Shown in pieces: positions 13,290 to 63,642 of a DNA stretch of 64,000 nucleotides; within the stretch, counting starts at the first letter, position 1; each line of letters starts with the position of its first letter. Location: NCBI RefSeq assembly GCF_011038975.1, contig NZ_JAAKEC010000017.1:1-64000 (forward strand), in the 5' to 3' direction. Made by a program: the position numbers and the translations under genes. The notes under the pieces are model-generated. The model had not been told where the DNA came from, did no database searches, and saw nothing but the letters and a program-made list of their open reading frames with translations. The stretch is from Adlercreutzia sp. ZJ176 (GTDB lineage: Bacteria > Actinomycetota > Coriobacteriia > Coriobacteriales > Eggerthellaceae).

Positions 13290-14534
13290 CTAGCGGGTGG
13301 CAGCGCTTCCTTGGACAGGTCCCTCCTTGAGCCTTCGCGCCAGAAACGCCAGCATGATCGCGGAGGCCACGGCGTAGGCGGCGGAGACGGCGAAGCTCAC
13401 GCCGTTCCCGCCGAACGCCTGCACGAGCACCACCGAGCACGGCAGCGACACCAGAAAGCCCGCGCCGTTGCCCACGAGGTTGCCGCGCATGTCGCGCACG
13501 GAGATGAGCAGGTCGCTCAGAAACGACACGTACGCCGTGAGCACCACGCACACGAGCGCCGGGTACAGCAGGTACACGTGCGCGGCGATGCTCGGGCCGA
13601 ACACGAGCACGAGCAGAGGCTCGCCCGCGAACGCGAACAGCACGAAGCAGGCCGCGAACAGCGCCGCGATGCCCGCCGTCACCTTCCCCAGAAGGCCCCA
13701 GAAGCCGCGCCGGTCGCCGTCGGCGAACCGCTGCGCGAACACGCCGAGCAGTGGGTCATAGAGGTAGCTCGCGCCCGCCTGCACCGCCACCGCCGGCGTG
13801 CACACCGACGCGTACACGCCGAGCGCCGCGTCGCCCGCCCACGCGCCCAGGTACTGGCGCGGCACCGTGGCCACGCAGATGTAAAACACCGCGCCGAGAA
13901 CCGCCGGCAGGCACGTCCGCGCCAGCTGCCAGGCACGCGCCGGGGTGATGGAGGGGCGCAACGTGTCGAGTGCGCCCGCGCAACGTACGTCGTAGACGAT
14001 TACCGGGTAGGTCACGGCAATCATGGCGAGAATGGCCAGCGTGAGGTCGCCCGTGGCGCCGAAGACGCCCGCGAATGCCGCCAGGAACAAAACGCCGCGC
14101 ATCATGAGCGACTTGCCGCAGAAGTCCATGCGGAAGTTCTGCTGGTCGACGCCGTGCAGCACGTCGATGAACACCTCGCCCGCGCGAAACGCCAAGTAGA
14201 GAAACACCGGGACATAGGTCGTCGTCGCGCAGGTGACGAGCGTGTACGCCCCCACCACCACGAAGGCCGCGCCGATGGTGATCAGGCGGAACGCCACGTA
14301 CTCGCGCGCGGACACCGCGCGGTTGACGTCCGAGACCTGGTACGCGCGGATCTTGTAAAGCGAAATGTGCGCGAAGATGTTCGACACCGCCATGGCCAGC
14401 GCCAGCACGCCGGCGGCGTCGTAGGTGGGCGACAGCCGCGCCACCAGCACCGTCACCACCCACTGGGACATCAGGTAGACAAGCGAACCTGCCGAGTTCC
14501 ACAGCATGTTCCTCTTTATCGAAAGCTCCTGCAT
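13290..14534 (-). CDS. Wzx-like polysaccharide flippase (copy 1)
   Basis: The 414-residue protein is almost entirely hydrophobic, with about 12 predicted membrane spans, and belongs to the MOP/MATE-type lipid-linked oligosaccharide flippases. The N-terminus (KRNMLWNSAGSLVYLMSQWV) is typical of RfbX/Wzx proteins and resembles the second flippase at 33079-34344 (RANIVWNTAGNFIYLFCQW). It would move undecaprenyl-linked sugar units across the membrane. It is divergent from the LicD gene and both lie between inverted 97-bp repeats. Confidence 0.85.
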   Translation of the reverse strand: MQELSIKRNMLWNSAGSLVYLMSQWVVTVLVARLSPTYDAAGVLALAMAVSNIFAHISLYKIRAYQVSDVNRAVSAREYVAFRLITIGAAFVVVGAYTLVTCATTTYVPVFLYLAFRAGEVFIDVLHGVDQQNFRMDFCGKSLMMRGVLFLAAFAGVFGATGDLTLAILAMIAVTYPVIVYDVRCAGALDTLRPSITPARAWQLARTCLPAVLGAVFYICVATVPRQYLGAWAGDAALGVYASVCTPAVAVQAGASYLYDPLLGVFAQRFADGDRRGFWGLLGKVTAGIAALFAACFVLFAFAGEPLLVLVFGPSIAAHVYLLYPALVCVVLTAYVSFLSDLLISVRDMRGNLVGNGAGFLVSLPCSVVLVQAFGGNGVSFAVSAAYAVASAIMLAFLARRLKEGPVQGSAATR

Positions 14535-14635: not shown

Positions 14636-15619
14636 ATGCCCAGCCTCGCCCAGCCTCACCCGCTTGAACTGCAGATTTACCAACCGGGAAGGCGAATCTT
14701 GAGAGCGACCATCGACGAGGTCTACGACCCGCAAACGCTGCGCCGCCTGCAGCTTGTCGAGCTCGACATCTTGAAGCGGTTCGACGCCATGTGCGCCAAG
14801 CACAACCTCGAGTACTTCGCCGTGTACGGCACCGTGCTCGGCGCCATCCGCCACGGCGGCATCATCCCCTGGGACGACGACATCGACATCGCCATGCCGC
14901 GCCGCGACTACGAGCGCCTCGCCGAGCTGGTGCCGCTCGAGTTCGGCGACGGGTTCTCACTCCTCAACGGCCAGATCGACCCGCGCTACCCCTTCTGCAC
15001 GAGCCGCATCATGAAGAAGGGCACCGAGTTCCGCATGCTCTCCATGAAGGACTGCCCCTTCGAGCTGGGAATATTCCTCGACATCTTCTGCTTCGACAAC
15101 CTGCCCGACGACGAGCGCGCGCGCCGCCGCCTCGTGCGGAAGTGCTGGGTGCTCGAGAAGATGTGCATCCTGCGCAATACTCCCTTCCCCAACCTGCCGT
15201 ACCGCGGGCTCAAGCGCGCAGTGACGTACGCCCTGTGCGCCGCAGGGTCGGCGTGCATGAAGGTGTTCCCGCGCGCCAAGCTGCACGAGTGGATGCAGGG
15301 TGCCGCGCGCGCCTACGAGCACGAGGAGACCGGCTACATCGGATGGCCGTTCGGACTCGACCCCTCGCAGAGCATCTACCCCAAGAGCATGGTGTACCCG
15401 CTCACGCGCGCGCCGTTCGAGGACATGCAGGTGGTCATGCCGAGCGACCCGCACGGGCAGATGCGCCTGTGCTACGGGGAGACGTACCTGACGCCGCCGC
15501 CTGACGGGCAGAAGTCCTACATCGTGCCCTACCGCCTGAGCTTCGGCGACGAGGGGGATCCGGTGAACGAAAAGAGCATGCCTTCACCTGATCTCGACCT
15601 TGAGGCCGCGCGCGCTTAG
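14636..15619 (+). CDS. LicD-family phosphotransferase
   Basis: The 327-residue protein has the LicD nucleotidyltransferase-fold motif FAVYGTVLGAIRHGGIIPWD, directly followed by DDIDIAMPRRDYERL, the metal-binding Asp triad. LicD proteins transfer phosphocholine or related groups from a CDP carrier to cell-surface glycans. The best start is the ATG at 14636, just after an extended -10 promoter; upstream in-frame starts fall in the promoter. The LicC/LicA fusion and LicB-like permease at 18142-21132 could supply CDP-choline, making one dispersed lic pathway (inference). Confidence 0.88.
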   Translation: MPSLAQPHPLELQIYQPGRRILRATIDEVYDPQTLRRLQLVELDILKRFDAMCAKHNLEYFAVYGTVLGAIRHGGIIPWDDDIDIAMPRRDYERLAELVPLEFGDGFSLLNGQIDPRYPFCTSRIMKKGTEFRMLSMKDCPFELGIFLDIFCFDNLPDDERARRRLVRKCWVLEKMCILRNTPFPNLPYRGLKRAVTYALCAAGSACMKVFPRAKLHEWMQGAARAYEHEETGYIGWPFGLDPSQSIYPKSMVYPLTRAPFEDMQVVMPSDPHGQMRLCYGETYLTPPPDGQKSYIVPYRLSFGDEGDPVNEKSMPSPDLDLEAARA

Positions 15620-15698
15620 TCCTGCTTGATGCGCCCGGCGGAGCCGGGGCAGAGCTCAGTCGCTCGCTCGAACAACCCCTCTCACCGCGTCCGGCGGC

Positions 15699-15795
15699 GC
15701 TGGGGCAGAGCTCAGTCGCTCGGGCAGTCCTGCTCGCACGAAAGCGCCGCTGGCGCTTTCGGCTCGTGCGGAACTCGCTTGGTGAGCACCGCCCC
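15699..15795 (-). repeat. 97-bp dispersed repeat, copy B (inverted to copy A), plus partial unit
   Basis: This is the inverted partner of 13156-13252 (92/97 identity). Within it ACGAAAGCGCCGCTGGCGC can fold into a tight hairpin. A partial extra unit (GGGGCAGAGCTCAGTCGCTCG) lies at about 15646-15666. The gap 15620-15843 contains no gene. Confidence 0.85.
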
Positions 15796-15843
15796 GGCTC
15801 CGCTGGGCGCTTCCGCTACTTCAGCACCTGAAAAAGAATCGGC

Positions 15844-17904
15844 CTAATCCCGCTTGATGCGGTACAGGCGCATGTCGCCTTCTGCCAGCACCGGCTCGAA
15901 CCCGGCCGTGTCGTCGCTGATGGAGCTCACGCCCTGCCACTGCTCCCAGTTGAACGTGAACAGGTGCCTGCTCCTCTCGAGCTTGGGGTCGCCCTGGTCA
16001 AGCAGCAGCAGGTAGGTCGCATCTACCGCGTCCACGGCATCCCGCGCCTCAGGCTCCGCCGCAACGTCGCGCAGCCGCTCGCGGATGATGCGGCTCTCGG
16101 GCGTCTCGTCGTCCTCGCCGTAGGGGCCGCTGTAACGGTAGTACGTGTTCATGCCGCAGAGGGCGTAGACGTATTCCGAGCCGTCATCGGGCATGTTGAG
16201 CACGAGGTCGTCCCGGGTGATCGCCGCCGCCTCCTGCGCGAACGCGCGCTCCTCGGGGCTGAGGATGTTATCGACCGTCGGGTCGTAGGCGCCGCGCGCC
16301 GAGTGCGCGAGATCGCCGAACGCCGTGCGGACAGGCCCTTCGCCGAGCGGGCAGAAGCTCACGACAGCAAACGCCAGCACGCACGCGCAAGCCGCAGCCG
16401 CCGAGGAGCGGCCGCCTGCCGCGCCCACGGCCCGAGAACTCGCCACAGCATGCGCCGCCCGCGCCAGCCCGAGGCTCGCGAGCGGAACGGCGTAGAACGC
16501 GAGCGACGACCCGAGGCGCGCCGCGTCGGTGTACCAGAAGCCCGCGAGCAGCTGCTTCGCGAGTCCGTCGGTGGCAAGCGTGACCACGTAAATGCCGCCC
16601 ATGAGCACGTACGCGCACAGGATCCAGGTGTAGCGCCGGTCGCGCCACGCTTGCGCCGCGCCTACCAGCACGAGCACGCCGAGCAGCACCTGGGGCAGCG
16701 TCTCGCGGTAGCTGAGCAGCAGCAGGTTGCCCAAGGCGGTCTGCGGGCTCGCGTAGGCGGGCCACACGTGCCAGACCACCTCGTGTAGAAACGGCAGGTT
16801 GAACAGCACGCACCAGATGACGCCGATGCACGCCACCGCCGCAAGCGACGCCAGGTTCCTGTTTCGAGGCGCGTCTGCGCCTTCGCCCAGAAGGCGCGGC
16901 ACGCGGCGGGCGAGCTGCACGCAGTACGGGATGAGGAACACCGCAGCCGTGAACGCGGCGTTCGGCTGCGCGAGCGCGAGCGCCATGACGCCCACGGCGA
17001 ACAGGCATGCCGCCACCACGCGCTCGCCCCGCGCGGCCCCCTCGGCGAAGATCGCCATGAAGAAGCAGATCGCTGACGGCATGAGCGCGAACGCGGCGAG
17101 GTTGGGGTACAGCGGCCCCCAGTTCACCATCTGCCAGGGAAACGCCGCGAACGCAAGCGACGCCACCGCGCCGCACAGAAGCGCGCGCGGGTTGTCGCGA
17201 AACACGCAGCGCAGAAGGGCGAAGGCGCCCGCAGGGTACACCAGCCCCGCGAACAGGAAGTTCGTCGCGTTCGCCGCCACCGTGACCGGCGCGCCGAGCG
17301 CCGAGGCCGAAAGCGCCGCCGTAACGTGCCAGGCCGCGGGGTAGAAGCTCCACCCCGCGATGGGCATGATCGTCGCGCGCGCCTCAGGCGCGTACGTCGC
17401 CACGTCGAGCGACGACCAGCAGCCCGTGTCCGCGAACGTGCGAATCATGCCCAGATGGTGCATGCTGTCGAACGACTGCGCGAAACCCTCGGGGCTGCCC
17501 AGCGAAAGCGCGGTGAACCACGTGATCACAGCAAGGCCTGTGCCCAGGTAGAGCGCGAAGCACTTCGCGTCGAAGCGCGCGCGCAAGCAGCGCGGCGCGC
17601 CAGCAGCATCAACCACGAAGGCGAGGCGCGCCGGCGCACGCCACGGGCGCGACAGCGCGAACACAAGCGCGCAGGCCGCCGTCGCCGGCACGCCCATGCT
17701 CGCCCAGCTCGCGAACACGCCGAGCTGGGCGTAGACGATGCCGAGGGCGCCGAAGATCGCCACCGAGAAGGCAGGTGCGCAGGCAAGCGCCGTCAGTCGT
17801 CCCACCCGCACGCTCCTGACCAGGAGGTATCCCGGAACCCACAGAAAGGCCGCCTCCAGTAGGACGCACCCGGCGAAAAGCCCCCAAGACCCCAAGCCGC
17901 TCAA
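15844..17904 (-). CDS. DUF6541-like polytopic membrane protein (copy 1)
   Basis: The ~686-residue protein has a large hydrophobic N-terminal part (about 12-14 spans) with GT-C-like features in the first loops (FAQSFDSMHHLGMIRTFAD, GWSFYPAAWH, NWGPLYPNL). A ~150-residue soluble C-terminal domain contains LVLNMPDDGSEYVYALCGMN and ends FEPVLAEGDMRLYRIKRD. It is a clear paralog of the protein at 42527-44590. The architecture resembles membrane glycosyltransferases using polyprenyl-phosphate sugars; activity is unknown. The TTG at 17904 follows AGGAGG very closely, and a second TTG three codons in is better spaced. Confidence 0.75.
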   Translation of the reverse strand: MSGLGSWGLFAGCVLLEAAFLWVPGYLLVRSVRVGRLTALACAPAFSVAIFGALGIVYAQLGVFASWASMGVPATAACALVFALSRPWRAPARLAFVVDAAGAPRCLRARFDAKCFALYLGTGLAVITWFTALSLGSPEGFAQSFDSMHHLGMIRTFADTGCWSSLDVATYAPEARATIMPIAGWSFYPAAWHVTAALSASALGAPVTVAANATNFLFAGLVYPAGAFALLRCVFRDNPRALLCGAVASLAFAAFPWQMVNWGPLYPNLAAFALMPSAICFFMAIFAEGAARGERVVAACLFAVGVMALALAQPNAAFTAAVFLIPYCVQLARRVPRLLGEGADAPRNRNLASLAAVACIGVIWCVLFNLPFLHEVVWHVWPAYASPQTALGNLLLLSYRETLPQVLLGVLVLVGAAQAWRDRRYTWILCAYVLMGGIYVVTLATDGLAKQLLAGFWYTDAARLGSSLAFYAVPLASLGLARAAHAVASSRAVGAAGGRSSAAAACACVLAFAVVSFCPLGEGPVRTAFGDLAHSARGAYDPTVDNILSPEERAFAQEAAAITRDDLVLNMPDDGSEYVYALCGMNTYYRYSGPYGEDDETPESRIIRERLRDVAAEPEARDAVDAVDATYLLLLDQGDPKLERSRHLFTFNWEQWQGVSSISDDTAGFEPVLAEGDMRLYRIKRD

Positions 17905-18059
17905 CGCCTCCTCTCGCCAACATGATCGGCCGCTAACATCGTCACCTGCGCCTCGAGCCCATCACCGGACCAAAAGGCGAATGAGCAGATGAACATGCGA
18001 TTTGTCATTATCCGCCAAGCGGCGCCCCGTGGCAACGAATCTCTTTTCCATTCGCCTTC

Positions 18060-18088
18060 TTGTGCAATATGTTCCAAGTTAGTACAAT
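18060..18088 (+). promoter_or_regulatory. Sigma70-type promoter of the licCA operon
   Basis: TTGTGC (18060-18065) and TACAAT (18083-18088) are 17 bases apart. Transcription would begin near 18095, consistent with the ATG start at 18142 and against the in-frame TTG at 18100. Confidence 0.6.
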
Positions 18089-18141
18089 AAGTCAATGTTT
18101 TGAACACCCCTTGCATCCGGGAAGGCAAGGACATCACGAAT

Positions 18142-19923
18142 ATGAGCATCACCGAGAACGAGTTCAAGGTGCTCGCGGCCTTGAACGGCGGCAACGTCGC
18201 CTCGCAGCGCGACCTCGCGGCAGCAGCCGGCGTGTCGCTGGGAACGGCAAACCGCTCCCACCGCGCGCTCGCGGAGGCGAGCCTCGTGGCGGGCTTCGAG
18301 CTGACAGAAGCTGGTCGTGCGACGCTTGAGCCCTACAAAGTCGAAAACGCGATCATCATGGCGGCAGGCCTCTCGTCCCGCTTCGCCCCCATCTCCTACG
18401 AGAAGCCGAAGGGCCTGCTCAAGGTGCGCGGCGAGGTGCTCGTCGAGCGCCAGATCAAACAGCTGCAAGAGGCCGGCATCACCGACATCACCGTCGTCGT
18501 CGGCTACAAGAAGGAGTACTTCTTCTACTTGGAGGACGCCTTCGGCGTGTCGATCGTCGTGAACCCCGAGTACGCGTCGCGCAACAACAACTCGACGCTC
18601 AAGGTGGTCGAGCACCGCCTCGGCAACACCTACGTCTGCTCGTCAGACGACTACTTCACCCGAAACCCCTTCGAACCCTACGTCTGGAAGGCCTACTATG
18701 CCGCCGCGTACGCCGAGGGACCGACGCGGGAGTGGTGCATCAAGACGAGCACCCGCGCCCGCGACCGCATTGCCGGCGTGACCGTCGGCGGCGCGGACGC
18801 CTGGTACATGATCGGGCACGTCTACTTCGACCGCACGTTCTCACGGCGCTTCGCCGAGATCCTCGACGACGAGTACGACCTGCCCCAGACTGCCGACAAG
18901 CTGTGGGAGGAGATCTACCTCGACCACGCCAGGGAGCTCGACATGCGCATGCGCCGCTACGAGCCGGGCGTGATCTTCGAGTTCGACTCGCTCGACGAGG
19001 TGCGCGCGTTCGACCCGCACTTCCTCGAGAACCTCGACTCCGAGGTGTTCGATAACATCACGCGCACGCTCGGCTGCGCGAAATCCGAGATCCACGACGT
19101 GTACCCCCTGAAGCAGGGCCTCACCAACCTGTCGTGCCACTTCCGCACGTCAGACGGCGAATACGTCTACCGTCATCCCGGCATCGGCACCGAGAACCTC
19201 GTCGACCGCGCCGCTGAGGTCAAGGCGCAGGAAGCCGCACGCGAGCTGGGGCTTGACAGCACGTTCATCTTCGAGGACCCCACACGCGGCTGGAAGGTCT
19301 CGCGCTTCATCCCCCGCTGCCGCCACCTCGACCCGCACGACGACGCGCAGCTCGCGCGCGCCATGCGCACCGCCGCCCGCCTGCACGCCGCCGACGTGAG
19401 CGTCGAGCGCGCCTTCGACTTCTACGCCGAGGGCAAGCGCTACGAGTCCCTCCTCCTCCTCGCACGCGGAAGCATCGACGTGCCCGGCTACCATGAGATG
19501 GCCGCCGACGCGCAGCGCGTGAAGGAGCTCGCCGACGCCGACGGCGCGCCCGCATGCCTCACCCACAACGACTTCTTCCACCTGAACTTCCTCATCGACG
19601 GGGATGACGGCTTGAGCCTCATCGACTGGGAGTACGCCGGCATGGCCGACTACGCCAGCGACTTCGGCACGTTCACCGTGTGCTGCGAGCTCACCGACGA
19701 GGAGGCGCATCGCGCGCTCGCCCACTACTTCGGACGTACGCCCACGCCCGCCGAGGTGCGCCACAACTTCGCCTACGTGGCGCTCGCGGGATGGTGCTGG
19801 TACGTGTGGGCGCTCGTGAAGGAAGCCGAGGGCGACTTCGTAGGCGAGTGGCTCTACATCTACTACAACTACGCCAAACGCTACCTCGGCGAGGTTCTGC
19901 GCCTCTACGAAGAGGCCGCTTAG
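18142..19923 (+). CDS. LicC-LicA fusion: winged-helix + nucleotidyltransferase + choline kinase-like
   Basis: The 593-residue protein has three parts. Residues 1-~65 resemble a MarR-type winged helix (NEFKVLAALNGG..SQRDLAAAAGVS). Residues ~68-290 are a LicC-like CTP:phosphocholine cytidylyltransferase (IIMAAGLSSRFAPISYEKPK; VCSSDDYF). Residues ~310-593 are a LicA-like kinase with Brenner-type motifs HNDFFHLNFLID and LIDWEYAG. It could convert choline to phosphocholine and then CDP-choline in one polypeptide, though the exact amino alcohol is unproven. A typical promoter precedes it and the LicB-like permease follows, so these form an operon. The ATG at 18142 has AAGGA ten bases upstream. Confidence 0.85.
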   Translation: MSITENEFKVLAALNGGNVASQRDLAAAAGVSLGTANRSHRALAEASLVAGFELTEAGRATLEPYKVENAIIMAAGLSSRFAPISYEKPKGLLKVRGEVLVERQIKQLQEAGITDITVVVGYKKEYFFYLEDAFGVSIVVNPEYASRNNNSTLKVVEHRLGNTYVCSSDDYFTRNPFEPYVWKAYYAAAYAEGPTREWCIKTSTRARDRIAGVTVGGADAWYMIGHVYFDRTFSRRFAEILDDEYDLPQTADKLWEEIYLDHARELDMRMRRYEPGVIFEFDSLDEVRAFDPHFLENLDSEVFDNITRTLGCAKSEIHDVYPLKQGLTNLSCHFRTSDGEYVYRHPGIGTENLVDRAAEVKAQEAARELGLDSTFIFEDPTRGWKVSRFIPRCRHLDPHDDAQLARAMRTAARLHAADVSVERAFDFYAEGKRYESLLLLARGSIDVPGYHEMAADAQRVKELADADGAPACLTHNDFFHLNFLIDGDDGLSLIDWEYAGMADYASDFGTFTVCCELTDEEAHRALAHYFGRTPTPAEVRHNFAYVALAGWCWYVWALVKEAEGDFVGEWLYIYYNYAKRYLGEVLRLYEEAA

Positions 19924-20022
19924 CAAGCCAAGGTGCGGGCGCCGCCGCCTTGGCCGAACAACCAGGCCGAGCGCGCCCCGCAAGCACCTAACGGACAAGC
20001 CATCGAGAGAATCGAGCACAGC

Positions 20023-21132
20023 ATGGAACAGCGCGTCAAGAAGCTTCGCGAGGAGCGCAGAAGGCGGTACTTTGTCCGCGGCGTCGCCTTCGCGGTGGCC
20101 TCGGGCATCTGCTACGGGCTCTACACCGGGTTCCTCACCCTGGCGGAGACGCAGGGCGTGTGGGGCGAGTGGTTCGCCGGCGGCCCGTGGGGCGACGGGC
20201 GCCCGGCGCTTGCCGCGTTCACCGTCACGTTCGCGCTCGCCGCGCTTGCCGCCGGCATCAACGACCTCTTCAGCGGTATATGGTCGCTCGCCGTCTGCGC
20301 GAAGAACCGCCAGCTCGGCGACCTGGCCAAGACCGTGAGGACGAAGCCCGGGCTCGTCATGGTGCTCTGCGCAGCGATCGGCGGGCCCTTCGCCACCATC
20401 GCCTACATCGTCGGCCTCAACGCGGCCACCGCGGCGGGCAACCCCGGCGTCATCGTGCCCATCGCGGCTTTGAACTGCGCCATCGGCGCCGTCCTGGGGC
20501 GCGTCCTGTTCAGGCAGGACCTGAGCGCCCACAAGGTCGCGGGCATCCTCGTCTGCCTGGTCGCCGCCGCGCTGATCGGCGGCACGAGTTTCGCGTCGAT
20601 GGGCCCCGAGGCGCTCACGGGCTGCCTGTTCGCGTTCCTCGCGGCCTTCGGGTGGGGCTTCGAGGGCTGCGTCGCCGGCTTCGGCACCGCGCTCATCGAC
20701 TACCGCATCGGGATAGCCATCCGCCAAACCTCTGCAGGCATCCTCGAGCTTCTTATCATGTTTCCCCTGCTCACAGCCATAGGCGGCGAAGCGGGAAGCA
20801 TACTCGACCTGGCAGGAGCCGCCTTCACGAGCCCGGCCGTCCTGGTCTTTCTGATGTCTGGCTTCTTCGCCATGCCTGCGTTCTCGTTCTGGTACAAGGG
20901 CAACTCCATGTGCGGCACCGCGCTCGGCATGGCATGCAACGGCATGTACGCATTCTGGGGGCCGTTCTTCATCTGGGTCATCATGGGCGTGCTCGGCATC
21001 GGCGGGATGTCTGAGAGCTACCCGCCCCTCACGCCGGCGCAGTGGGCAGGGGCCCTCGTCATGGTTGCGGGCATCTTCTGCATCGCCGTCAACCCCGCGA
21101 AGCTGCTTCGCGCTAACAAGGAGGAGGAGTAG
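20023..21132 (+). CDS. LicB-like DMT/EamA-family permease
   Basis: The 369-residue protein has about ten hydrophobic spans in two repeated halves, a DMT-superfamily layout. Immediately downstream of the LicC-LicA fusion, it is best read as the choline (or similar) importer LicB. Segments such as ATAAGNPGVIVPIAALNCA and MCGTALGMACNGMYAFWGP are typical of small-solute DMT proteins. The ATG at 20023 is preceded only by a weak GAGA site, and 30 in-frame upstream codons are Pro-rich and unlikely. Specificity is inferred from context. Confidence 0.78.
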   Translation: MEQRVKKLREERRRRYFVRGVAFAVASGICYGLYTGFLTLAETQGVWGEWFAGGPWGDGRPALAAFTVTFALAALAAGINDLFSGIWSLAVCAKNRQLGDLAKTVRTKPGLVMVLCAAIGGPFATIAYIVGLNAATAAGNPGVIVPIAALNCAIGAVLGRVLFRQDLSAHKVAGILVCLVAAALIGGTSFASMGPEALTGCLFAFLAAFGWGFEGCVAGFGTALIDYRIGIAIRQTSAGILELLIMFPLLTAIGGEAGSILDLAGAAFTSPAVLVFLMSGFFAMPAFSFWYKGNSMCGTALGMACNGMYAFWGPFFIWVIMGVLGIGGMSESYPPLTPAQWAGALVMVAGIFCIAVNPAKLLRANKEEE

Positions 21133-21134
21133 CC

Positions 21135-21413
21135 ATGGGCAGGGACCTGATGCCGCTGTACTACGCCATCGTCAAGCACTTCGAGGGCGGCGCGGAGGAC
21201 TGCGCGGAGGGCGTCGTGCGCGCGCTTGAGGCGGACTACGGCAGCTACAAGCTTTTGACGCGCGCCGACGTCGAGGAGGCGCTCGCCACCGCACGTGAGA
21301 ACGGCCTGCTCGACGAGACGCGCTGCGACCTCGACGAGAACGGGGAGCTGCGGATCTGCTACCGCGTGTCGGACTTCGGCGCCGACATGATGCGCCGCTA
21401 CCTCGACAGGTAG
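21135..21413 (+). CDS. Small conserved-looking protein of the lic operon, unknown function
   Basis: The 92-residue acidic protein begins two bases after the permease stop, with AAGGAGGAGGAG as an excellent ribosome site, so it is translated with the permease. The C-terminal half (RADVEEALATARENGLLDE ... YRVSDFGADMMRRYL) resembles the wing and last helix of a winged-helix domain, but no DNA-binding family is recognised. It may regulate or sense the pathway (inference). Confidence 0.7.
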   Translation: MGRDLMPLYYAIVKHFEGGAEDCAEGVVRALEADYGSYKLLTRADVEEALATARENGLLDETRCDLDENGELRICYRVSDFGADMMRRYLDR

Positions 21414-28861: not shown

Positions 28862-31567
28862 TTAATACCCGTAATTTACACGTGCAAAGCCCCGCATAAT
28901 CGGATTGCTGCTAGACCAAATTGAATAAGAATTCCTTACGACTCGATTACCCATATTCCCCTCAATAACGGTCACGTATCCACCATGCACGCTTTCCACG
29001 ATTCCCACATGCGAAACGTATTCTCCACCAGGGAAAGGAGCCCATGTGTTAAAAACAAGATCTCCGCGCCTTGGACTCCAGGTTATTTTCCCTAAGCTCT
29101 TGTACTTGTAGTATGCCTCCTGCGGATAGGAAGTTAGGAGCCCCTCGGCGAAAGTCGGCTCCAGCCCAGCCTGGCGAAAGACATACCAGACGAAATCTTG
29201 GCACCAATAACCACGGCTACCGTTGATCAATGTGCCTCCTGCAGACAGCATAGCATTCTCAAACCGAGCCCCACCGTACGTTCCGATGTATGAAGATGCT
29301 GCAGAAAGAAGGTTGTTGATCTTTTCTGCAGGAGAGACATAGCGGGCCGGTTCCAGCATAAACGATTGGGCAAGCGATCCGTTTCGGCCGCTCACAACAG
29401 CTGATGATCCAGAAGCAACGGTGTCTCCGGCGAACGCAAGAGCCCTCCCTGACGACAGAGAGATGATTGTATATCCGCCTTTCATATCGGGGAGAATCTT
29501 CCAACGTTGATTGGATCCGTTATGCCATGCCCATTGGTTAACAAGGCCGCTAGCTTCTACAACGTCAAGGGCCTTCCCTGAATTGCACGACATAAAGCGG
29601 ACGACGTAATCCCCTTCGTTAACAGCATAAAACTTTTGCCACTCTTTCGATGCTCCCTTTGACCAAAAAACGCACTTCGCTCCATCGCCAACACTGCCGC
29701 CCGAGACGTCAAGCGCAATACCACGATTTGACGACGAAACGATTTGATAGGCTCCATCGCCAACAAAAGTTGACACTGGAATGAATTCTACCGAGAGAGC
29801 TTCATCGAACAAGCCCATGAATAGCTGAGAACCGCTTGAAAGTCCGGCTGATGAGCATACAAATTTTTGAGTTACAGTATTTTGCAGCAACCATCCACCT
29901 ATGTTAGAAGGAAGCAATCGCCAAGCATTCCCAACAGCAGCGCTTGAGTCGGAACCCCATTGAGCAAGCAGCGATTCATCCCCCTTTGGAAGGTCAACCA
30001 ATTCCTTGCCGTAGTTTGTCGAAGCCAATTTGAAGCTCCCGGAAGCGGAATGGGAGAGAAGCCACCTCTGCCACAGGCTTCCTCGATCGGTCCATAAGAT
30101 CACCTGAGCCCCGTCGGCAGAACTCGCATTCGCAACATCGAAAACCAGACGATCATCCGCGTTTGCAGCAATGGAATAATAGCCCTCCTGCAGAACGCTC
30201 GCGTCAACGAACCTGAACAATTGCCCTCTGCTGCCATCGGAAACCCACTGAGCTATGGAAGAACCTGACCTGGCAGAAACATCTTGAACGCCAAGGGCAA
30301 GACCGGAATGATGGGAGAGGATGCGATAATAGCCATCTTTGTCGGCAACAAGGATCCAGCGTTGATTCGCATTGCCGTTCTTGCTCCACTGGATAATGGG
30401 AGCACCGACATGCCTAGCGGCATCATACACGTCAAGCGAAAGGCCCGAATGAAGAGCGGCGATTTCATACATTCCGTCGTTTGTATAGGTTACTTTGAAC
30501 TTTTGCCAAGAACGTTGATTCGATTGCCACAACTCCAGCTTTGCTCCACCGCATTTCGACGCTGAAGTCACATCAAAAACCAAGCTGGAATCAAGAGCAG
30601 ATTGAATAATGTATGCACCATCAGCAAGAGTCTTTGACCCAGTGGGTTGAACGAACTCGGTCAATGCAAAACGCTGATTAAGGGATCCCGTGTCTTCCCA
30701 AACGATAATATTGGCTCCGTCGGAATACCTCCCGTACGCAACATCAAGAACCAATCCAGATAATGCGCTAATAAACGTATATGAACCATCGAAATTGCAG
30801 CGAATCCTCCACTTTTGATTACCTTGCCCATTTGGAGCCCACTGAATTACGTTAGCACCAGGCTCTTTTGAAGCCCATGCAACATCTAGGCTTTTTCCCG
30901 TACTTACGCAGACAATATCATAGAAACCAAGGCCATCAGAGGTAAGCATGAAGCGCTGCCAGTCACCGCAGTTCGAAGACCAAAGTTCAATATTGGCTCC
31001 CGAGTCAGGCGAAGCTCCCGTAACGTCAACTACAAAAGAAGCGCTTTGATACGCATGTATCGTATACACCCCGTCTTTGACGGGCGTCTCTTCACCTTGC
31101 GCAGTGCTTTCTTTAGAAGCAACAGGCCGTTGGTCATCGAAATGGTCAAGCGATATCGCGGAATCCTCTTCGCTTTGCCCCGAATCGCTTTCATTCGAAG
31201 CAGACGAAGGTGGGTTACCCTCATCCAAAGTGCAGCTCTGCAAATCTCCGCTCTCTCCCTCGGCCCCCGAGTTGACAGGAGGCAGGAGGCTTTCTTTCGC
31301 TCCATCAGGATCGCCATCGGTGGCAGCACCTTCATCTTCGTTAGCAGAAGCGCCTTCGTCCAAACACTCGACCCCCGGATTATTATCCAAAGGCAAACGG
31401 GTGCTTTCTTCAGACGCAATATTTGCCTCCCCCGTCAAGGAACCATCAGAAACGGAGCCAGAAGCATATGCAACACACGGGTTAAAAGCAAAACAAAAGC
31501 AAACCGCACAAACCGCAACGACCACGAAAGCGCAATTACGGCGCAAGCTTATATTTCCAAAACGCAT
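28862..31567 (-). CDS. Secreted protein: ricin-type lectin repeats plus C-terminal CHAP domain
   Basis: The ~901-residue protein has a signal peptide (FVVVAVCAVCFCFAFNPC), a Ser/Glu/Asp-rich linker of ~100 residues, then about 560 residues of RICIN beta-trefoil repeats with recurring Q-x-W-like units (NQKWRIR, NQRFAL, WQKFKV, NQRWILV). The C-terminal ~150 residues resemble a CHAP cysteine peptidase/amidase: WCQDFVWYVFRQAG (Cys) and YVSHVGIVESV (His). It is probably a wall hydrolase targeted by carbohydrate binding. The ATG at 31567 follows AGGG; seven upstream codons are possible but less likely. A minus-strand promoter-like TTGACA lies upstream. Confidence 0.85.
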   Translation of the reverse strand: MRFGNISLRRNCAFVVVAVCAVCFCFAFNPCVAYASGSVSDGSLTGEANIASEESTRLPLDNNPGVECLDEGASANEDEGAATDGDPDGAKESLLPPVNSGAEGESGDLQSCTLDEGNPPSSASNESDSGQSEEDSAISLDHFDDQRPVASKESTAQGEETPVKDGVYTIHAYQSASFVVDVTGASPDSGANIELWSSNCGDWQRFMLTSDGLGFYDIVCVSTGKSLDVAWASKEPGANVIQWAPNGQGNQKWRIRCNFDGSYTFISALSGLVLDVAYGRYSDGANIIVWEDTGSLNQRFALTEFVQPTGSKTLADGAYIIQSALDSSLVFDVTSASKCGGAKLELWQSNQRSWQKFKVTYTNDGMYEIAALHSGLSLDVYDAARHVGAPIIQWSKNGNANQRWILVADKDGYYRILSHHSGLALGVQDVSARSGSSIAQWVSDGSRGQLFRFVDASVLQEGYYSIAANADDRLVFDVANASSADGAQVILWTDRGSLWQRWLLSHSASGSFKLASTNYGKELVDLPKGDESLLAQWGSDSSAAVGNAWRLLPSNIGGWLLQNTVTQKFVCSSAGLSSGSQLFMGLFDEALSVEFIPVSTFVGDGAYQIVSSSNRGIALDVSGGSVGDGAKCVFWSKGASKEWQKFYAVNEGDYVVRFMSCNSGKALDVVEASGLVNQWAWHNGSNQRWKILPDMKGGYTIISLSSGRALAFAGDTVASGSSAVVSGRNGSLAQSFMLEPARYVSPAEKINNLLSAASSYIGTYGGARFENAMLSAGGTLINGSRGYWCQDFVWYVFRQAGLEPTFAEGLLTSYPQEAYYKYKSLGKITWSPRRGDLVFNTWAPFPGGEYVSHVGIVESVHGGYVTVIEGNMGNRVVRNSYSIWSSSNPIMRGFARVNYGY

Positions 31568-31625
31568 ATCGCACCCTGCCTTATACATGTTTTATAAGAA
31601 CCTAGACTACTGTTTCCTTTTTGTG

Positions 31626-42526: not shown

Positions 42527-44590
42527 TCACACCATGGAGGACCCTTTATCTCTTACGATCGCATAGAGTCGCATATCCCCCTCAGCAAGAGCAACCTCGA
42601 ATCCCGGTGTTTCGTCGCTTATGCTCATCAGCCCATCCCACCAGTCAGCCCACCAGCGCCACGTGAAGAGCCATACCCTCTCCGTATCATCAATGGTTGC
42701 CCCTTGGTCAAGCAGAAGCACGTACTCTGCACCTGCGTCCTCGACCGCCTCAGCCACCCGATCATTCGTCGTCAAGTCACACATGCTTTCACGGAACAGC
42801 TTGCTATCCTCGGATTCGGCAGAGGGATTCCAAATGCGAGTGTTGCGATAGAAGGTGTTGATCCCCTCTTCTGCGTAGAGGAATACCGATCCGTCATCTG
42901 GCACGTTGACCACAAGAGCGTCCTCGCCCACTATCTCCTTGACCCGCTTTGCGAAAGTCATCTCCTCCGCTGTCAATATGTTTACCTCAGCGCTGTCCGA
43001 GTAGACGAGACCTGCCTGAAACTCAACCCACTCGAACGCTGACGTTCGCCCTCCGGGCAGGGTCACCGGCGCATAGTTCACAACCGCAAAAAGCGTGATC
43101 AGCCCAAAGGTGAGCGCTTTGCTAGCAAGAGATGAAGTCAATAAGTGCCCCATCGCATTTTGCAACAGCTGAATCACGGCTGCAACGCCAAGAGCAGCCA
43201 AGGGCACGCTGAACACCGCCGTATTCGCAGCCAAACGAAAAGCATCGTGGTACCAGCACCCCGTCACGACGTTTCGGATGAGATCCGGTGAATCCGTCGC
43301 AGAAACGACGAACGTCACCATAGACACGACGACTGAGATGACAATCCACAGATACCGCCTATCGAACAGAGCGTAGACCGAGCCCGCAAGGCAAAGCGCC
43401 GCAAAGACCAGCTGAGGACATCCATCTGTCAGGGAAAACGACAGCGCCGCTATGATGGCATCGGCTGTCGAGTCGAACAGAATAATCCCCGGCTCTTGCA
43501 GCAATCCCTGGATGAAGGAGGTCTTGTACAATGCGCACCAGATGAAGAGAATCGCCACCGAGCACAGTGAAAAGCCAATCACCCGGCCAACCGACTCGTG
43601 ACCTGAGAAAAAAGGACGCTCCCCCGCAAATCGAGCTGCATGCACCGCGCAAAAGGGAGCCAAAAACACAACGGCAGAAAACAGCACGTTAGGTTGGAGG
43701 AAGAACAGCCCCCCGCACGAGGCGATGAAGGCCAGCACGATAACGATACGCTGCGACTTGGATACATCCCCTCCAAAGAAGTGGACGAAAAGGGCCATGA
43801 CAGAAGGAAGGGCAGCCAATGCGGCAAGGTTGGGATAGATTGGCCCAAAGAACAGCAGCTTCCACGGAAAGCCTGCGCAAGCAGTGGCGAGGACGGCTCC
43901 CGCCAGAACGGCAATGGGACGATCCGCGAAGATCACCCGGAGAAGAAGGGCCATGCCAAGAGGAAAAACCACGAACGAAAAGGCGAAATTCACCGCGTTC
44001 TCCGCCAAGGAGACTGGTACGTCCATCACAGAGCTCAAGAAAGACGCCAGGTCAATCCAGCAACTCGGATAAAAGCCCGATGCGAAAGAAGACCAGTTTC
44101 CCTTCTCGATAAAACCCGCTATCGAGTTCATGTGGCTCGCATTGTCGAACGCCTGGAAGAAGCTGTCCGGCGACTCGATCTGAGCCAAAAAGAAGAACGA
44201 GCCCAGCAAGATCCCCACAACAAGAGCAACAATCCAGACGAAGAGATTGGTGCACCGCTCGCTCCACCCGAAAAGAGAAAAGCTGGTACCGCTGGATAGA
44301 GGGAGCGAGATGCCAGGAAAAACGACTCCACCTCTCTTAAGCAAGCGGATAATCACGCAAAACACCGCTGTCAACATCGCAACGGTAGCAAGAACTGACA
44401 ACCATGAGCTGAAAACCCCCACGATAGGATGAAGCACGCAGGTCACAGCCACGAAAAAAGAAGACACGACGGGGGCCAGGGACAGGGCATAGAGCCTACC
44501 AAACCCCAACGACCGCAAGACAGCGAATCCCGGAACGCAGAGAAGCGCCGCGCAAATCACGATGAGCGCTATCAGCTCAAACCAGAGCAT
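42527..44590 (-). CDS. DUF6541-like polytopic membrane protein (copy 2)
   Basis: The 687-residue protein is a paralog of 15844-17904: FFQAFDNASHMNSIAGFIEK, FGPIYPNLAALAALPS and the C-terminal LVVNVPDDGSVFLYAEEGIN and EVALAEGDMRLYAIVRD all have counterparts. It has about 12-14 membrane spans and a soluble C-terminal domain. The GT-C-like loops suggest a glycosyltransferase or polymerase-like role in the same pathway (inference). The ATG follows GGAGGAATC. Confidence 0.78.
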   Translation of the reverse strand: MLWFELIALIVICAALLCVPGFAVLRSLGFGRLYALSLAPVVSSFFVAVTCVLHPIVGVFSSWLSVLATVAMLTAVFCVIIRLLKRGGVVFPGISLPLSSGTSFSLFGWSERCTNLFVWIVALVVGILLGSFFFLAQIESPDSFFQAFDNASHMNSIAGFIEKGNWSSFASGFYPSCWIDLASFLSSVMDVPVSLAENAVNFAFSFVVFPLGMALLLRVIFADRPIAVLAGAVLATACAGFPWKLLFFGPIYPNLAALAALPSVMALFVHFFGGDVSKSQRIVIVLAFIASCGGLFFLQPNVLFSAVVFLAPFCAVHAARFAGERPFFSGHESVGRVIGFSLCSVAILFIWCALYKTSFIQGLLQEPGIILFDSTADAIIAALSFSLTDGCPQLVFAALCLAGSVYALFDRRYLWIVISVVVSMVTFVVSATDSPDLIRNVVTGCWYHDAFRLAANTAVFSVPLAALGVAAVIQLLQNAMGHLLTSSLASKALTFGLITLFAVVNYAPVTLPGGRTSAFEWVEFQAGLVYSDSAEVNILTAEEMTFAKRVKEIVGEDALVVNVPDDGSVFLYAEEGINTFYRNTRIWNPSAESEDSKLFRESMCDLTTNDRVAEAVEDAGAEYVLLLDQGATIDDTERVWLFTWRWWADWWDGLMSISDETPGFEVALAEGDMRLYAIVRDKGSSMV

Positions 44591-48349: not shown

Positions 48350-49138
48350 ATGGCTCTTAGCGAAGCGAAGAAAAACCTTCTTAGGAGAAACTGGTTTACG
48401 ATCACCTCGCTCGTCTCGAGGGATTTCAAGCTCAAGTATCGCAGGAGCGCGCTCGGAGTCGCGTGGTCAGTGCTCAACCCCTTGCTCATGATGTGTGTAC
48501 TTGCAGCCGTGTTCTCCATGTTCCTCAGGTTCGGAGACATTCCTAACTTCCCGCTCTACCTCATCTTGGGAAACACCATCTTCGCGCTCATGGCCGACTC
48601 GACGTCAGCGGCCATGTATTCCGTTATCGAATCGGCGCCTCTCATCAAGAAGATAAGGATCGACAAGATCATCTTCCCCCTTGAAAAGGTCCTTTTTCAG
48701 GTTGTCAACTTCGTCATCTCGCTCATAGCGGTCATCATCGTGATGCTCGTCTTCCGCATCGCCCCTACGCCGAGCATTCTCCTTCTACCGCTGCTCGTCA
48801 TCTACGTCGCGGTGTTCAGCGCGGGACTGAGCATGGCGCTTTCGGCACTCGCTGTGTTCTTCCGCGACGTACTGCATCTCTGGAGCGTCGTCATCACGGC
48901 CTGGACCTACGCCACGCCGTTGTTCTACCCTATCACGATTCTCCCCGATTTGATGCAGACGGCTATGATGTACAACCCTATGTACCACTATGTCACCTAT
49001 TTCAGAGACATTGCCCTCTACGGTACCGTGCCAAGCTTATCGGCCAATTTCATATGCCTTGGAATGGCGCTCGTATCCTTCGCAATTGGCCTTGCCATTT
49101 TTAAGAAGAACGAGAGCAGATTCATCCTTTACGTATAG
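48350..49138 (+). CDS. ABC-2 polysaccharide exporter permease (TagG/Wzm-like)
   Basis: The 262-residue protein has an amphipathic N-terminus (VSRDFKLKYRRSALGVAWSV) typical of ABC-2 polysaccharide permeases and six hydrophobic spans. FYPITILPDLMQTAMMYNPM is a characteristic pre-TM5/6 segment. It would export a complete lipid-linked glycan with the ATPase encoded next. The ATG follows GAGGAGATCC. Confidence 0.92.
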   Translation: MALSEAKKNLLRRNWFTITSLVSRDFKLKYRRSALGVAWSVLNPLLMMCVLAAVFSMFLRFGDIPNFPLYLILGNTIFALMADSTSAAMYSVIESAPLIKKIRIDKIIFPLEKVLFQVVNFVISLIAVIIVMLVFRIAPTPSILLLPLLVIYVAVFSAGLSMALSALAVFFRDVLHLWSVVITAWTYATPLFYPITILPDLMQTAMMYNPMYHYVTYFRDIALYGTVPSLSANFICLGMALVSFAIGLAIFKKNESRFILYV

Positions 49139-62241: not shown

Positions 62242-63642
62242 GTGGTACGACGCAGCACATCAAGCAGCCAGCCAGATCATTTTCACACCTCAGCTAGCTT
62301 GGGGTCTAAAACCAACTCCAAACCTGTTGCGAATCCCATGAAGTATGGTGGCGCTACTGGCGCTCAGTACTCCCGCGAGAATCCTGGGTATTCGCATGCC
62401 GTCCAACGGCGCTCGGGGCGCGGCAAGAAGATCGCTCTCTGCATCCTCGCAGCCGTGTTGGTCATCGCACTCGGCGGGGCTTCTGCATTCGCCATCTACC
62501 TGGACTCGGTGAACTCCAAGCTCAAGCAGGGCACGAAGACCTCCGACGAGATCGCCGCCATCGATGACGTCCTGCGACCCGCAAGCGCCCTTGACGAGCC
62601 GTTCTACATGATGCTCATCGGATCCGACATGCGCGAAAACAACGATGAGATGGGCGCACGTTCCGACACCAACATCCTCGTGCGCGTTGACCCCTCGAAC
62701 GACCAGGTCACCATGGTGTCTATCCCCCGCGACACGAAGGTCGAGCTCGACGGATACGGCACGAACAAGTTCAACGCCATCTACAACTTCGAGGGGACGG
62801 CGGGCGTCATATCCGAGACCAAGAAGCTGCTTGGCGTCGACATATCGTATTACGCCGAGGTGAACTTCGGCAAGCTGGTTGATCTCGTCAACGCCGTCGG
62901 CGGCGTCGACGTTGAGGTCGAGGAGCTCATCGACGACCCCGACGCTGATCGCCCTGAATCAGGGAGGCATATCGTCATCCAAGAGGGTCTCCAGCATCTC
63001 GATGGCGAGGAGGCTCTCGTGTTCGCCCGCTGCCGCGCATATGCTGACGGCGACTTCACGCGCACGGCCAACCAGCGCAAACTCATCGAGGCCATCGTGG
63101 ACAAGGTGCTCTCCGCGCCCGTCACGAGCTTGCCCGGCATCATCGAGAAGGCATCCGACTGCGTCACCACCAACCTGTCCGTTTCCGATATCATCACGCT
63201 TGCCCAGCAGTTCAAGAGCGATGGCGGCCTCACGATCTACTCGGGCATGGTTCCCTCCTGGACTCAGACGATCGACGGGATCTCATACGTCATCAACGAT
63301 GCCAAGGCCACCAAGGAGATGATGGCTATTGTGGAAGCCGGAGAGGATCCCAGCACCGTGGTTTCTTCCGGCGCGCCTGCCCCCGAAGAAAGCTCAAGCT
63401 CCAGCACTAGCGCCAGCACCAGCAGCGAAAACGATTCTGGATACGGATACGGGTACGACCCCGGGTACAGCAACCCGCCAAGTTACTACGAGCCCCCTGC
63501 TGATAGTGGCGCAGACGTTGGCGCAGGTGACGACACCGCAGCGGATGCTCCTGCATACGGAAGCGATGATGGAGCAGTGGAAGCGCCAGGAGCAGAGGCG
63601 TCGTCTCCAAGCAACACCGCACCCCAAGCCGATGCAGCATAG
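62242..63642 (+). CDS. LytR-CpsA-Psr (LCP) family glycopolymer ligase
   Basis: The 466-residue protein has a ~60-residue cytoplasmic N-terminus, one membrane helix (IALCILAAVLVIALGGASAF), and an LCP domain with LIGSDMR, ARSDTNILVRVDPSN, MVSIPRDTKVEL and FARCRAYADGDFTRTANQR. A Ser/Asp/Ala/Pro-rich extracellular tail of ~90 residues follows. LCP enzymes transfer lipid-linked glycopolymers onto peptidoglycan, the expected last step for this locus. AGGAGCTCTC precedes the GTG start. A hairpin terminator follows. Confidence 0.93.
   Translation: MVRRSTSSSQPDHFHTSASLGSKTNSKPVANPMKYGGATGAQYSRENPGYSHAVQRRSGRGKKIALCILAAVLVIALGGASAFAIYLDSVNSKLKQGTKTSDEIAAIDDVLRPASALDEPFYMMLIGSDMRENNDEMGARSDTNILVRVDPSNDQVTMVSIPRDTKVELDGYGTNKFNAIYNFEGTAGVISETKKLLGVDISYYAEVNFGKLVDLVNAVGGVDVEVEELIDDPDADRPESGRHIVIQEGLQHLDGEEALVFARCRAYADGDFTRTANQRKLIEAIVDKVLSAPVTSLPGIIEKASDCVTTNLSVSDIITLAQQFKSDGGLTIYSGMVPSWTQTIDGISYVINDAKATKEMMAIVEAGEDPSTVVSSGAPAPEESSSSSTSASTSSENDSGYGYGYDPGYSNPPSYYEPPADSGADVGAGDDTAADAPAYGSDDGAVEAPGAEASSPSNTAPQADAA

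Follow-up and report, generated by a model that had tools for sequence, protein, structure and literature searches.

Locus organization

In this study we analyzed a 64,000-nucleotide stretch of DNA from Adlercreutzia sp. ZJ176 (contig NZ_JAAKEC010000017.1, positions 1 to 64,000; called the window below) that carries genes resembling the lic phosphocholine system, among them a single open frame joining a winged helix, a LicC-like cytidylyltransferase, and a LicA-like kinase. The host genome (G000, contig C8) is Adlercreutzia-like, and among the matches listed its closest named relative is Adlercreutzia sp. ZJ473, with 93% for the three-domain enzyme. An earlier note on this DNA had placed a LicD transferase, the three-domain polypeptide, a LicB-like permease, and a small protein close together, and domain, profile, and fold matches bear this out. 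The features are as follows.

13290..14534, minus strand: MOP-type (Wzx/TacF-like) flippase, assigned by profile match and LicD linkage; divergent from LicD
14636..15619, plus strand: LicD-family phosphocholine (or related) transferase, whole domain matched by Pfam LicD PF04991 (9.8e-37)
15844..17904, minus strand: DUF6541 multi-spanning membrane protein (PF20176, 1.5e-163), of uncertain membership in the module
18071..18105, no strand: putative operator GTTCC-N25-TGAAC, one mismatch from GTTCA-N24-26-TGAAC
18142..19923, plus strand: three-domain enzyme (winged helix, LicC, LicA), 593 amino acids, single open frame
18142..18336, plus strand: its winged-helix domain, residues 1-65 (HTH_24)
18346..19014, plus strand: its LicC-like cytidylyltransferase domain, residues 69-291
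19081..19875, plus strand: its LicA-like kinase domain, residues 314-578, with a type I pocket (AGWCWYVW)
20023..21132, plus strand: divergent LicB-like DMT permease, 369 amino acids, ATG at 20023, assigned by profile and fold (the big permease)
21135..21413, plus strand: small acidic protein, 92 residues, with a PadR-like winged-helix fold, the permease's companion

The small protein's ATG begins two bases past the permease stop. LicD is a transcription unit separate from the enzyme, because the opposite-strand DUF6541 gene intervenes. The single cluster originally described thus holds as regards proximity but not as one operon, and the flippase has to be added to it. A DUF6541 gene also lies near lic genes in some relatives, and a second one in the window (42527-44590, minus strand) likewise adjoins glycan genes.

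We read this locus, with moderate confidence, as a lic-type choline module whose activating enzyme is predicted to be its own transcriptional regulator as well.

The three-domain enzyme and its substrate

Both catalytic parts of the enzyme match choline enzymes best among solved structures. Residues 69-291 retrieve pneumococcal LicC (1jyk, 3.8e-36), residues 314-578 pneumococcal LicA (4r77, 3.3e-20), and residues 326-568 a choline/ethanolamine kinase (3dxq, 7.3e-23), while residues 5-46 match HTH_24 at 5.6e-5 (23.1 bits; cut-off, 21.9). The domain search of this frame proposed in the earlier note thus returned all three expected parts. A sugar kinase or sugar nucleotidyltransferase identity, which that note had named as contrary to its proposal, was rejected, the top solved sugar enzyme scoring 1.2e-7 against 3.8e-36 for LicC. 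The 2-aminoethylphosphonate cytidylyltransferase PntC (6pd1), whose fold is related to that of the LicC domain, is likewise a far weaker match (8.1e-8), and neither NadR-type domains (NMN adenylyltransferase or NadR kinase) nor a BirA domain appear among the Pfam matches of the enzyme.

To map the active sites, pneumococcal LicA and LicC residues were placed on 36 aligned enzyme rows, with the roles that we take LicC Asp107, Trp136, Tyr190, and Asp218 to have. The roles of the LicA residues follow passages of PMC4364537, and those of LicC Asp105, Asp192, and Glu216 follow passages of PMC6697681. LicA Asp176, Asn181, Asp194, and Glu196 are kept in all 36 rows and Thr29 in 34 of them; LicC Asp107, Glu216, and Asp218 are kept in 36/36 and Trp136 in 33/36. 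The choline cage stays aromatic, with Tyr197 a tyrosine in 35 rows, Trp251 and Trp254 invariant, and Tyr268 replaced by tryptophan in 30, and in the window enzyme each of these four residues is aromatic; LicA Val178 is phenylalanine in 27/36 rows. Judged by these residues, the enzyme looks catalytically complete, with a pocket that is choline-like but not identical to that of LicA.

The motif at residues 549-556 of the kinase pocket divides the family further. We typed 115 rows, from loci L032-L149 and the window (three rows exceeding 700 residues were truncated after residue 620), and recorded neighbors within 2.5 kb. Type I ('GW[CA]W'; n = 76), to which the window enzyme belongs, has LicB nearby in 58 rows, a permease of the window's kind in 12, a PhnS2-like ABC importer in 4, and none of these in 2, so that LicB or the big permease stands beside 70/76; EutH was found beside none. 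Type II ('[YF][YH]WF'; n = 25) adjoins EutH in 11 rows, one of which also has LicB, LicB alone in 5, and none of these in 9; at least one type II row with LicB, that at L127, also has a kinase-only copy, 59% identical to the window enzyme, directly beside LicB. The 14 rows with neither motif have EutH once, a window-kind permease once, and none of these in 12. The identity of EutH was established at L126:9875-11125 (NCBIfam NF011668, 657.7 bits against a cut-off of 575). There is thus a strong pattern in the sequences by which the family would split into a LicB-associated form and a form often beside the ethanolamine permease EutH. Since the window enzyme is of type I, choline is favored as its substrate.

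Several observations weigh against a choline substrate. The LicA and LicC models of NCBIfam are absent among the 25 best of the 39 enzyme matches; the top NCBIfam models, all far below cut-off, are GntI (kinase) and, for the cytidylyltransferase part, nucleotidyltransferases of the sugar type. LicA Glu213, a rim acid that touches the choline ammonium in the pneumococcal enzyme (according to passages of PMC4364537), is cysteine in the window enzyme and in 33/36 rows, and in LicC Tyr190 has become leucine (36/36), Asp105 serine (33/36), and Asp192 glutamate (36/36). As judged from the alignment, then, pocket identity does not prove choline specificity. The type I/II motif was moreover chosen after the table had been seen, and the rows are related, with some genomes present twice, so the split is not an independent test. 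These altered residues, together with the frequent EutH neighbors of the sister subfamily, would suit a substrate such as ethanolamine or another amino alcohol, with a glycan bearing phosphoethanolamine or a similar group. We consider this rather unlikely for the window, given its type I pocket and the neighbors of type I rows (EutH in 0/76, LicB in 58/76).

Three clusters in relatives (L126:3560-11128, L107:9970-14317, and L142:3565-4605) contain a PhnS2/T2/U2-like ABC importer of the 2-aminoethylphosphonate type, below cut-off, and a winged-helix-LicC protein without a kinase; that at L126 also has EutH, and an operator of the same kind as that described below is present. They may represent a sister module devoted to aminoethylphosphonate or ethanolamine.

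The rarity implied for the three-domain enzyme in the earlier note did not hold up. Matches occur in 34 of 60 genomes, the window's own included, and in 30 of these a single match spans both enzyme domains (in G005 and G039 it begins only past the winged helix); G051, with the enzyme in pieces, and G013, G043, and G050, with partial matches, are not counted among the 30. Relatives are encoded by 535/589 matched stretches among the matches listed. The best 80 named loci of a larger scan include Eggerthellaceae, Collinsella, Olsenella, Atopobium, Lancefieldella rimae, and Slackia as well as Actinomyces, Schaalia, Gardnerella, and Propionibacteriaceae. Database records label the enzyme 'phosphotransferase' or 'NTP transferase domain-containing protein'.

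Outside the phylum, the architecture recurs at about 27-30% identity in Lacticaseibacillus paracasei, on plasmid pE1-2 (L200), where it lies beside LicD, a second NTP (nucleoside triphosphate) transferase, and a BCCT-family transporter, and in Lachnospira eligens, where it adjoins an NTP transferase and a BCCT transporter. We count this pairing with a BCCT transporter in the Firmicute cousins, in one case also with LicD, in favor of a choline module. The pE1-2 lic genes also lie beside dTDP (deoxythymidine diphosphate)-rhamnose genes, and the plasmid is typed as mobilizable. Longer frames of 886-894 residues (L052:8881-11547, L055:7843-10524, and L057:7984-10641) seem to fuse the three-domain enzyme with another winged-helix-LicC unit, and fragments of similar enzymes occur in four unannotated 'Bacteriophage sp.' records from human feces (MT836088, MT839846, MT836439, and MT839161).

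A paired site upstream of the enzyme gene

In the earlier note, direct gene control was also proposed for the fused winged helix. This is supported by a paired site that is conserved upstream of the gene and makes the winged helix a predicted regulator of the enzyme's own gene. The upstream set comprised 250-bp regions of 108 three-domain genes, from which 5 with identical ends were dropped, leaving 103. The top enriched hexamers were TGTTCA and its reverse complement TGAACA, each in 61/103 regions, where dinucleotide shuffles predict 5.9 and 6.6. As GTTCA...TGAAC pairs they stand 24 nucleotides apart in 27 cases, 25 in 43, and 26 in 7. Allowing one mismatch, GTTCA-N24-26-TGAAC is found in 81 of the 103 regions (62 exact) and in 1.4% of mononucleotide shuffles; the stretch between the half-sites has an AT fraction of 0.75, the regions as a whole one of 0.49. 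Across the 1.22 Mb of named loci, spacings of 24, 25, and 26 occur 30, 43, and 8 times, against 0-5 at each of 32 other spacings (10 to 44), and the reversed control occurs once. A three-domain gene starting within 260 bp downstream could be assigned to 63 of these 81 sites.

Sites of the same kind precede the big permease in L083, LicB in L111, and solute-binding proteins in L091, L100, L107, L109, L126, and L142; the three of the latter that were scanned (L091, L126, and L142) are PhnS2-like, below cut-off. A Collinsella aerofaciens record has two exact sites, and the L. eligens cousin has one with a single mismatch. A scan for a plus-strand sigma-70 promoter upstream of the enzyme gene found none.

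The case for an enzyme that regulates itself is less tidy in other respects, which we set out together. No paired site was found in 22/103 upstream regions or upstream of the L. paracasei cousin, and the window's own site carries one mismatch. The quality of the winged helix, taken as its hidden Markov model score, is only weakly associated with the site (median, 84.5 bits with it versus 80.4 without; one-sided p = 0.029), so that here the earlier proposal fares less well. In the window's genome exact matches to the short form number 11, little above the 3 of the control, and are mostly GC-rich, while the exact long form TGTTCA-N24/25-TGAACA is absent from it; site matches do not define an operator regulon in that genome. 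A search of the 60 genomes for the exact long form gave 65 sites, spread over 28 genomes, where the reversed control gave 4, each in a different genome. Counted by hand, only 15 of the 65 immediately precede a three-domain gene (11 genomes); many of the rest are recurring GC-rich sequences, and the enzyme has no match in 10 of the 28 genomes.

One could therefore suppose that the winged helix is merely structural or vestigial and that the upstream site serves another, unlinked regulator. The long-form sites in genomes that lack an enzyme match and the weak association of helix and site fit this explanation, as do a winged-helix isoelectric point (pI) that varies widely (median, 5.8) and the genes at L141, L143, L144, L146, L124, and L103, whose winged helix is degenerate and whose site is kept. 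Against it, the HTH_24 match exceeds its cut-off, the helix 'SLGTVN' is widely kept, and the short-form site is concentrated at the enzyme gene in the named loci. Moreover, the loci L103 and L124 each contain a further enzyme copy whose winged helix is intact, and, judged by title, L144 shares its strain with L107 and L146 with L091; with intact copies in the same loci or strains, action in trans is possible. We regard a vestigial helix as unlikely, though a serious contender, and prefer a winged helix that would control the enzyme's own gene.

The permease and the small PadR-fold protein

By single sequence the permease is hardly recognizable: its matches are weak (EamA, 0.084; TIGR03340, 1.7e-5, far below cut-off), and the PDB gave no match for it up to E 1. 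The short permeases found in relatives are LicB proper, a 23-row profile of them retrieving the solved LicB 7b0k at 2.1e-49, whereas the profile of the window permease's own family does not retrieve LicB from the PDB. The two families nevertheless align by profile (probability, 99.9%; 2.6e-31), and the two best fold matches of the permease model (mean predicted local distance difference test [pLDDT] score, 75) are LicB entries (7paf, 2.6e-6; 7b0k, 3.1e-5). By these sequence and model comparisons, we take the permease to be a divergent, putative LicB substitute.

Its history points the same way. In a tree built from 59 three-domain enzymes, the neighbor is LicB for 46 and the big permease for 13; loci having neither permease type or two long three-domain copies are not in it. 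The permease type switches 7 times on this tree, at least 4 of them by well-supported branches, and the labels remain more clustered than after shuffling (mean for shuffled labels, 12 changes). The closest kin of the window enzyme apart from ZJ473, namely L080, A. muris, and A. mucosicola, carry LicB. That it has repeatedly changed places with LicB next to one and the same enzyme points to a shared cargo, and the permease therefore probably carries the substrate of LicB. An atypical LicB is also what an ethanolamine substrate might entail, but the repeated exchange with LicB and the LicB-like fold of the model argue against that substrate.

It is also conceivable that the big permease moves some other cargo, for example in export, and that its link to lic is regulatory only. 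It does belong to a distinct family, pocket-like positions are altered in the profile alignment with LicB, and other DMT members such as SLC35B1 also match its model. However, it takes the LicB slot repeatedly, and its two top modeled fold matches are LicB entries. All 9 genomes with the permease, moreover, have the three-domain enzyme, in pieces in G051. Another cargo thus seems improbable to us, and we keep to import of the LicB substrate as the probable function.

The big permease and the small protein each occur in 10 copies, in the same 9/60 genomes (a 31% match in G055 was not counted as a big permease). They are adjacent in 9 cases; in the tenth (G054) they lie on different contigs, with the permease at a contig end. 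The earlier note had seen a winged-helix-like tail in the small protein; the winged-helix fold stands, but in the model it is PadR-like and spans the whole protein (pLDDT, 86.5). Foldseek gave 6abt at 2.6e-4, with LmrR and PadR among the best matches, and no PadR sequence model of Pfam or NCBIfam was listed for it at E up to 1. The family is acidic (pI, 4.3-5.0 in 11/11 members). The small protein probably either partners the permease or regulates it locally, and because it is acidic and tied one-to-one to the permease, the partner role is as likely as DNA binding. As far as the gene neighborhoods indicate, permease and small protein form an apparent exchangeable cassette that replaces LicB.

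LicD, flippase, and acceptor

The LicD gene is the sole copy found in the window's genome. Its top NCBIfam model is cholinephosphotransferase Mf1, at 3.7e-22 and 79.6 bits against a cut-off of 225, and Mf1 acts on lipids, according to the NCBIfam model. Upstream of LicD, the flippase has no Pfam match up to E 1, and in the PDB a profile built from 22 relatives hits nothing but a lipid III flippase (9g95, 6.2e-4). Among 81 loci (the 80 named ones and the window), LicD is present in 38 and both genes in 30, and in 26/30 of the latter a flippase relative lies within 400 bp of LicD. The flippase probably belongs to the module and probably exports the lipid-linked glycan once it is decorated. Family, fold, and conserved neighborhood support the route first proposed, in which an amino alcohol is imported, activated, and attached; as for the last step, we infer that the acceptor is a surface glycan. 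Choline-binding repeats (PF19127), which could have lent weight to phosphocholine on that glycan, were not found in the genome (control positive).

Alternatively, CDP (cytidine diphosphate)-choline might feed a lipid, either phosphatidylcholine, as in Treponema denticola, or a phosphocholine glycolipid. The LicC-LicA fusion of T. denticola serves phosphatidylcholine, according to passages of PMC8590670, and Mf1 is a lipid-acting best model for LicD. In the window and in relatives, however, LicD and a LicD-linked flippase accompany the module, and no lipid-type CDP-alcohol transferase was present among the 19 window proteins scanned, the genome not having been searched for one. A lipid product appears highly improbable to us, and a glycan is the acceptor that we favor.

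One further gene may bear on the fate of such a glycan:

62242..63642, plus strand: LytR-CpsA-Psr protein (PF03816, 6.1e-39), with a possible, predicted role in glycan-to-wall attachment

Elsewhere in the window, a Wzt-like ABC-transporter ATPase (49172-51031, plus strand) with a C-terminal cell-wall-binding domain 2 (PF04122, 5.5e-17) adjoins an ABC2 membrane protein (48350-49138); this fusion is, to our knowledge, unusual. A secreted-looking protein (28862-31588, minus strand) has nine matched stretches of the ricin-type lectin repeat (PF14200) and a CHAP domain.

Comparison with known systems and proposed model

The lic route and the T. denticola LicC-LicA fusion are already known, as passages of PMC10434233 and PMC8590670 describe. 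Atopobium (Lancefieldella) rimae and Olsenella uli possess lic genes (PMC6697681, in part), and a LicD protein is mentioned in Gardnerella in a passage of PMC2928729. PMC6697681 characterizes the phosphonate enzyme PntC, and its relevant passages do not mention a LicC-LicA fusion or a winged helix. Among the open-licence papers listed, neither titles nor abstract openings described a LicC-LicA protein with a winged helix or this paired operator, subscription papers being outside this scope. The present analysis adds the conserved upstream site, the two-type split of the enzyme, and the exchangeable cassette of permease and PadR-fold protein.

Pneumococcal lic1/lic2 (LicA, LicB, LicC, and LicD1/2) with TacF takes the same steps of import, kinase, cytidylyltransferase, transferase, and MOP flippase. 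In contrast to it, the window has LicC and LicA in one chain behind a winged helix, a single LicD, and, in place of LicB, the divergent permease with its small companion; its genome also lacks detectable PF19127 repeats. The window flippase is MOP-like by profile and LicD-linked and may be a counterpart of TacF, a MOP flippase that monitors phosphocholine. Like the window enzyme, T. denticola LicCA carries LicC and LicA on one polypeptide; it acts with a cholinephosphotransferase toward phosphatidylcholine (Kent 2004, as cited in a passage of PMC8590670), whereas the window enzyme is accompanied by LicD and a flippase. Lancefieldella rimae, of the same class, encodes this three-domain enzyme too (L089, 61%), together with a short-family LicB. 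Biosynthetic enzymes with an N-terminal DNA-binding domain that controls their own pathway include NadR and BirA, and NadR has the domain order helix-turn-helix, nucleotidyltransferase, kinase. The window enzyme shares this order with NadR; both proteins would be its functional analogues and are not its relatives, the enzyme families being unrelated.

In the model that we propose, the LicB-like permease would import choline. The LicA domain would phosphorylate it and the LicC domain of the same polypeptide would make CDP-choline, as homology and conserved catalytic residues suggest. From their families and gene linkage, LicD would transfer phosphocholine to a glycan, probably lipid-linked, and the adjacent flippase would export the decorated glycan. 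The N-terminal winged helix is predicted to bind a two-half-site operator, GTTCA-N24/25-TGAAC, before its own gene, with half-sites about three helical turns apart, and expression of enzyme and permease might in this way be tied to occupancy by substrate or product. The permease and the small acidic PadR-fold protein would act as one exchangeable cassette in the place of LicB.

We are evenly divided on a broader reading, in which the enzyme family over Coriobacteriia and Actinomycetaceae would consist of bifunctional choline activators that also act as substrate-sensing repressors, with one conserved operator whose two half-sites stand three helical turns apart, and would run interchangeable decoration modules with a transporter slot swapped for each amino alcohol or phosphonate. 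If that is true, the options for the slot would be LicB, the LicB-like permease with its PadR-fold companion, EutH, and a PhnS2-type ABC importer.

With the conserved site in hand, a single purified protein and a single DNA fragment would suffice for a direct test of the enzyme as a regulator, and the type I/II signature may offer a handle to predict phosphocholine versus phosphoethanolamine display from the sequence of a species. Phosphocholine on bacterial surfaces is recognized by host antibodies, C-reactive protein, and receptors. Our observations suggest that many gut, oral, and vaginal actinobacteria appear able to make this tag, possibly under direct enzyme control.

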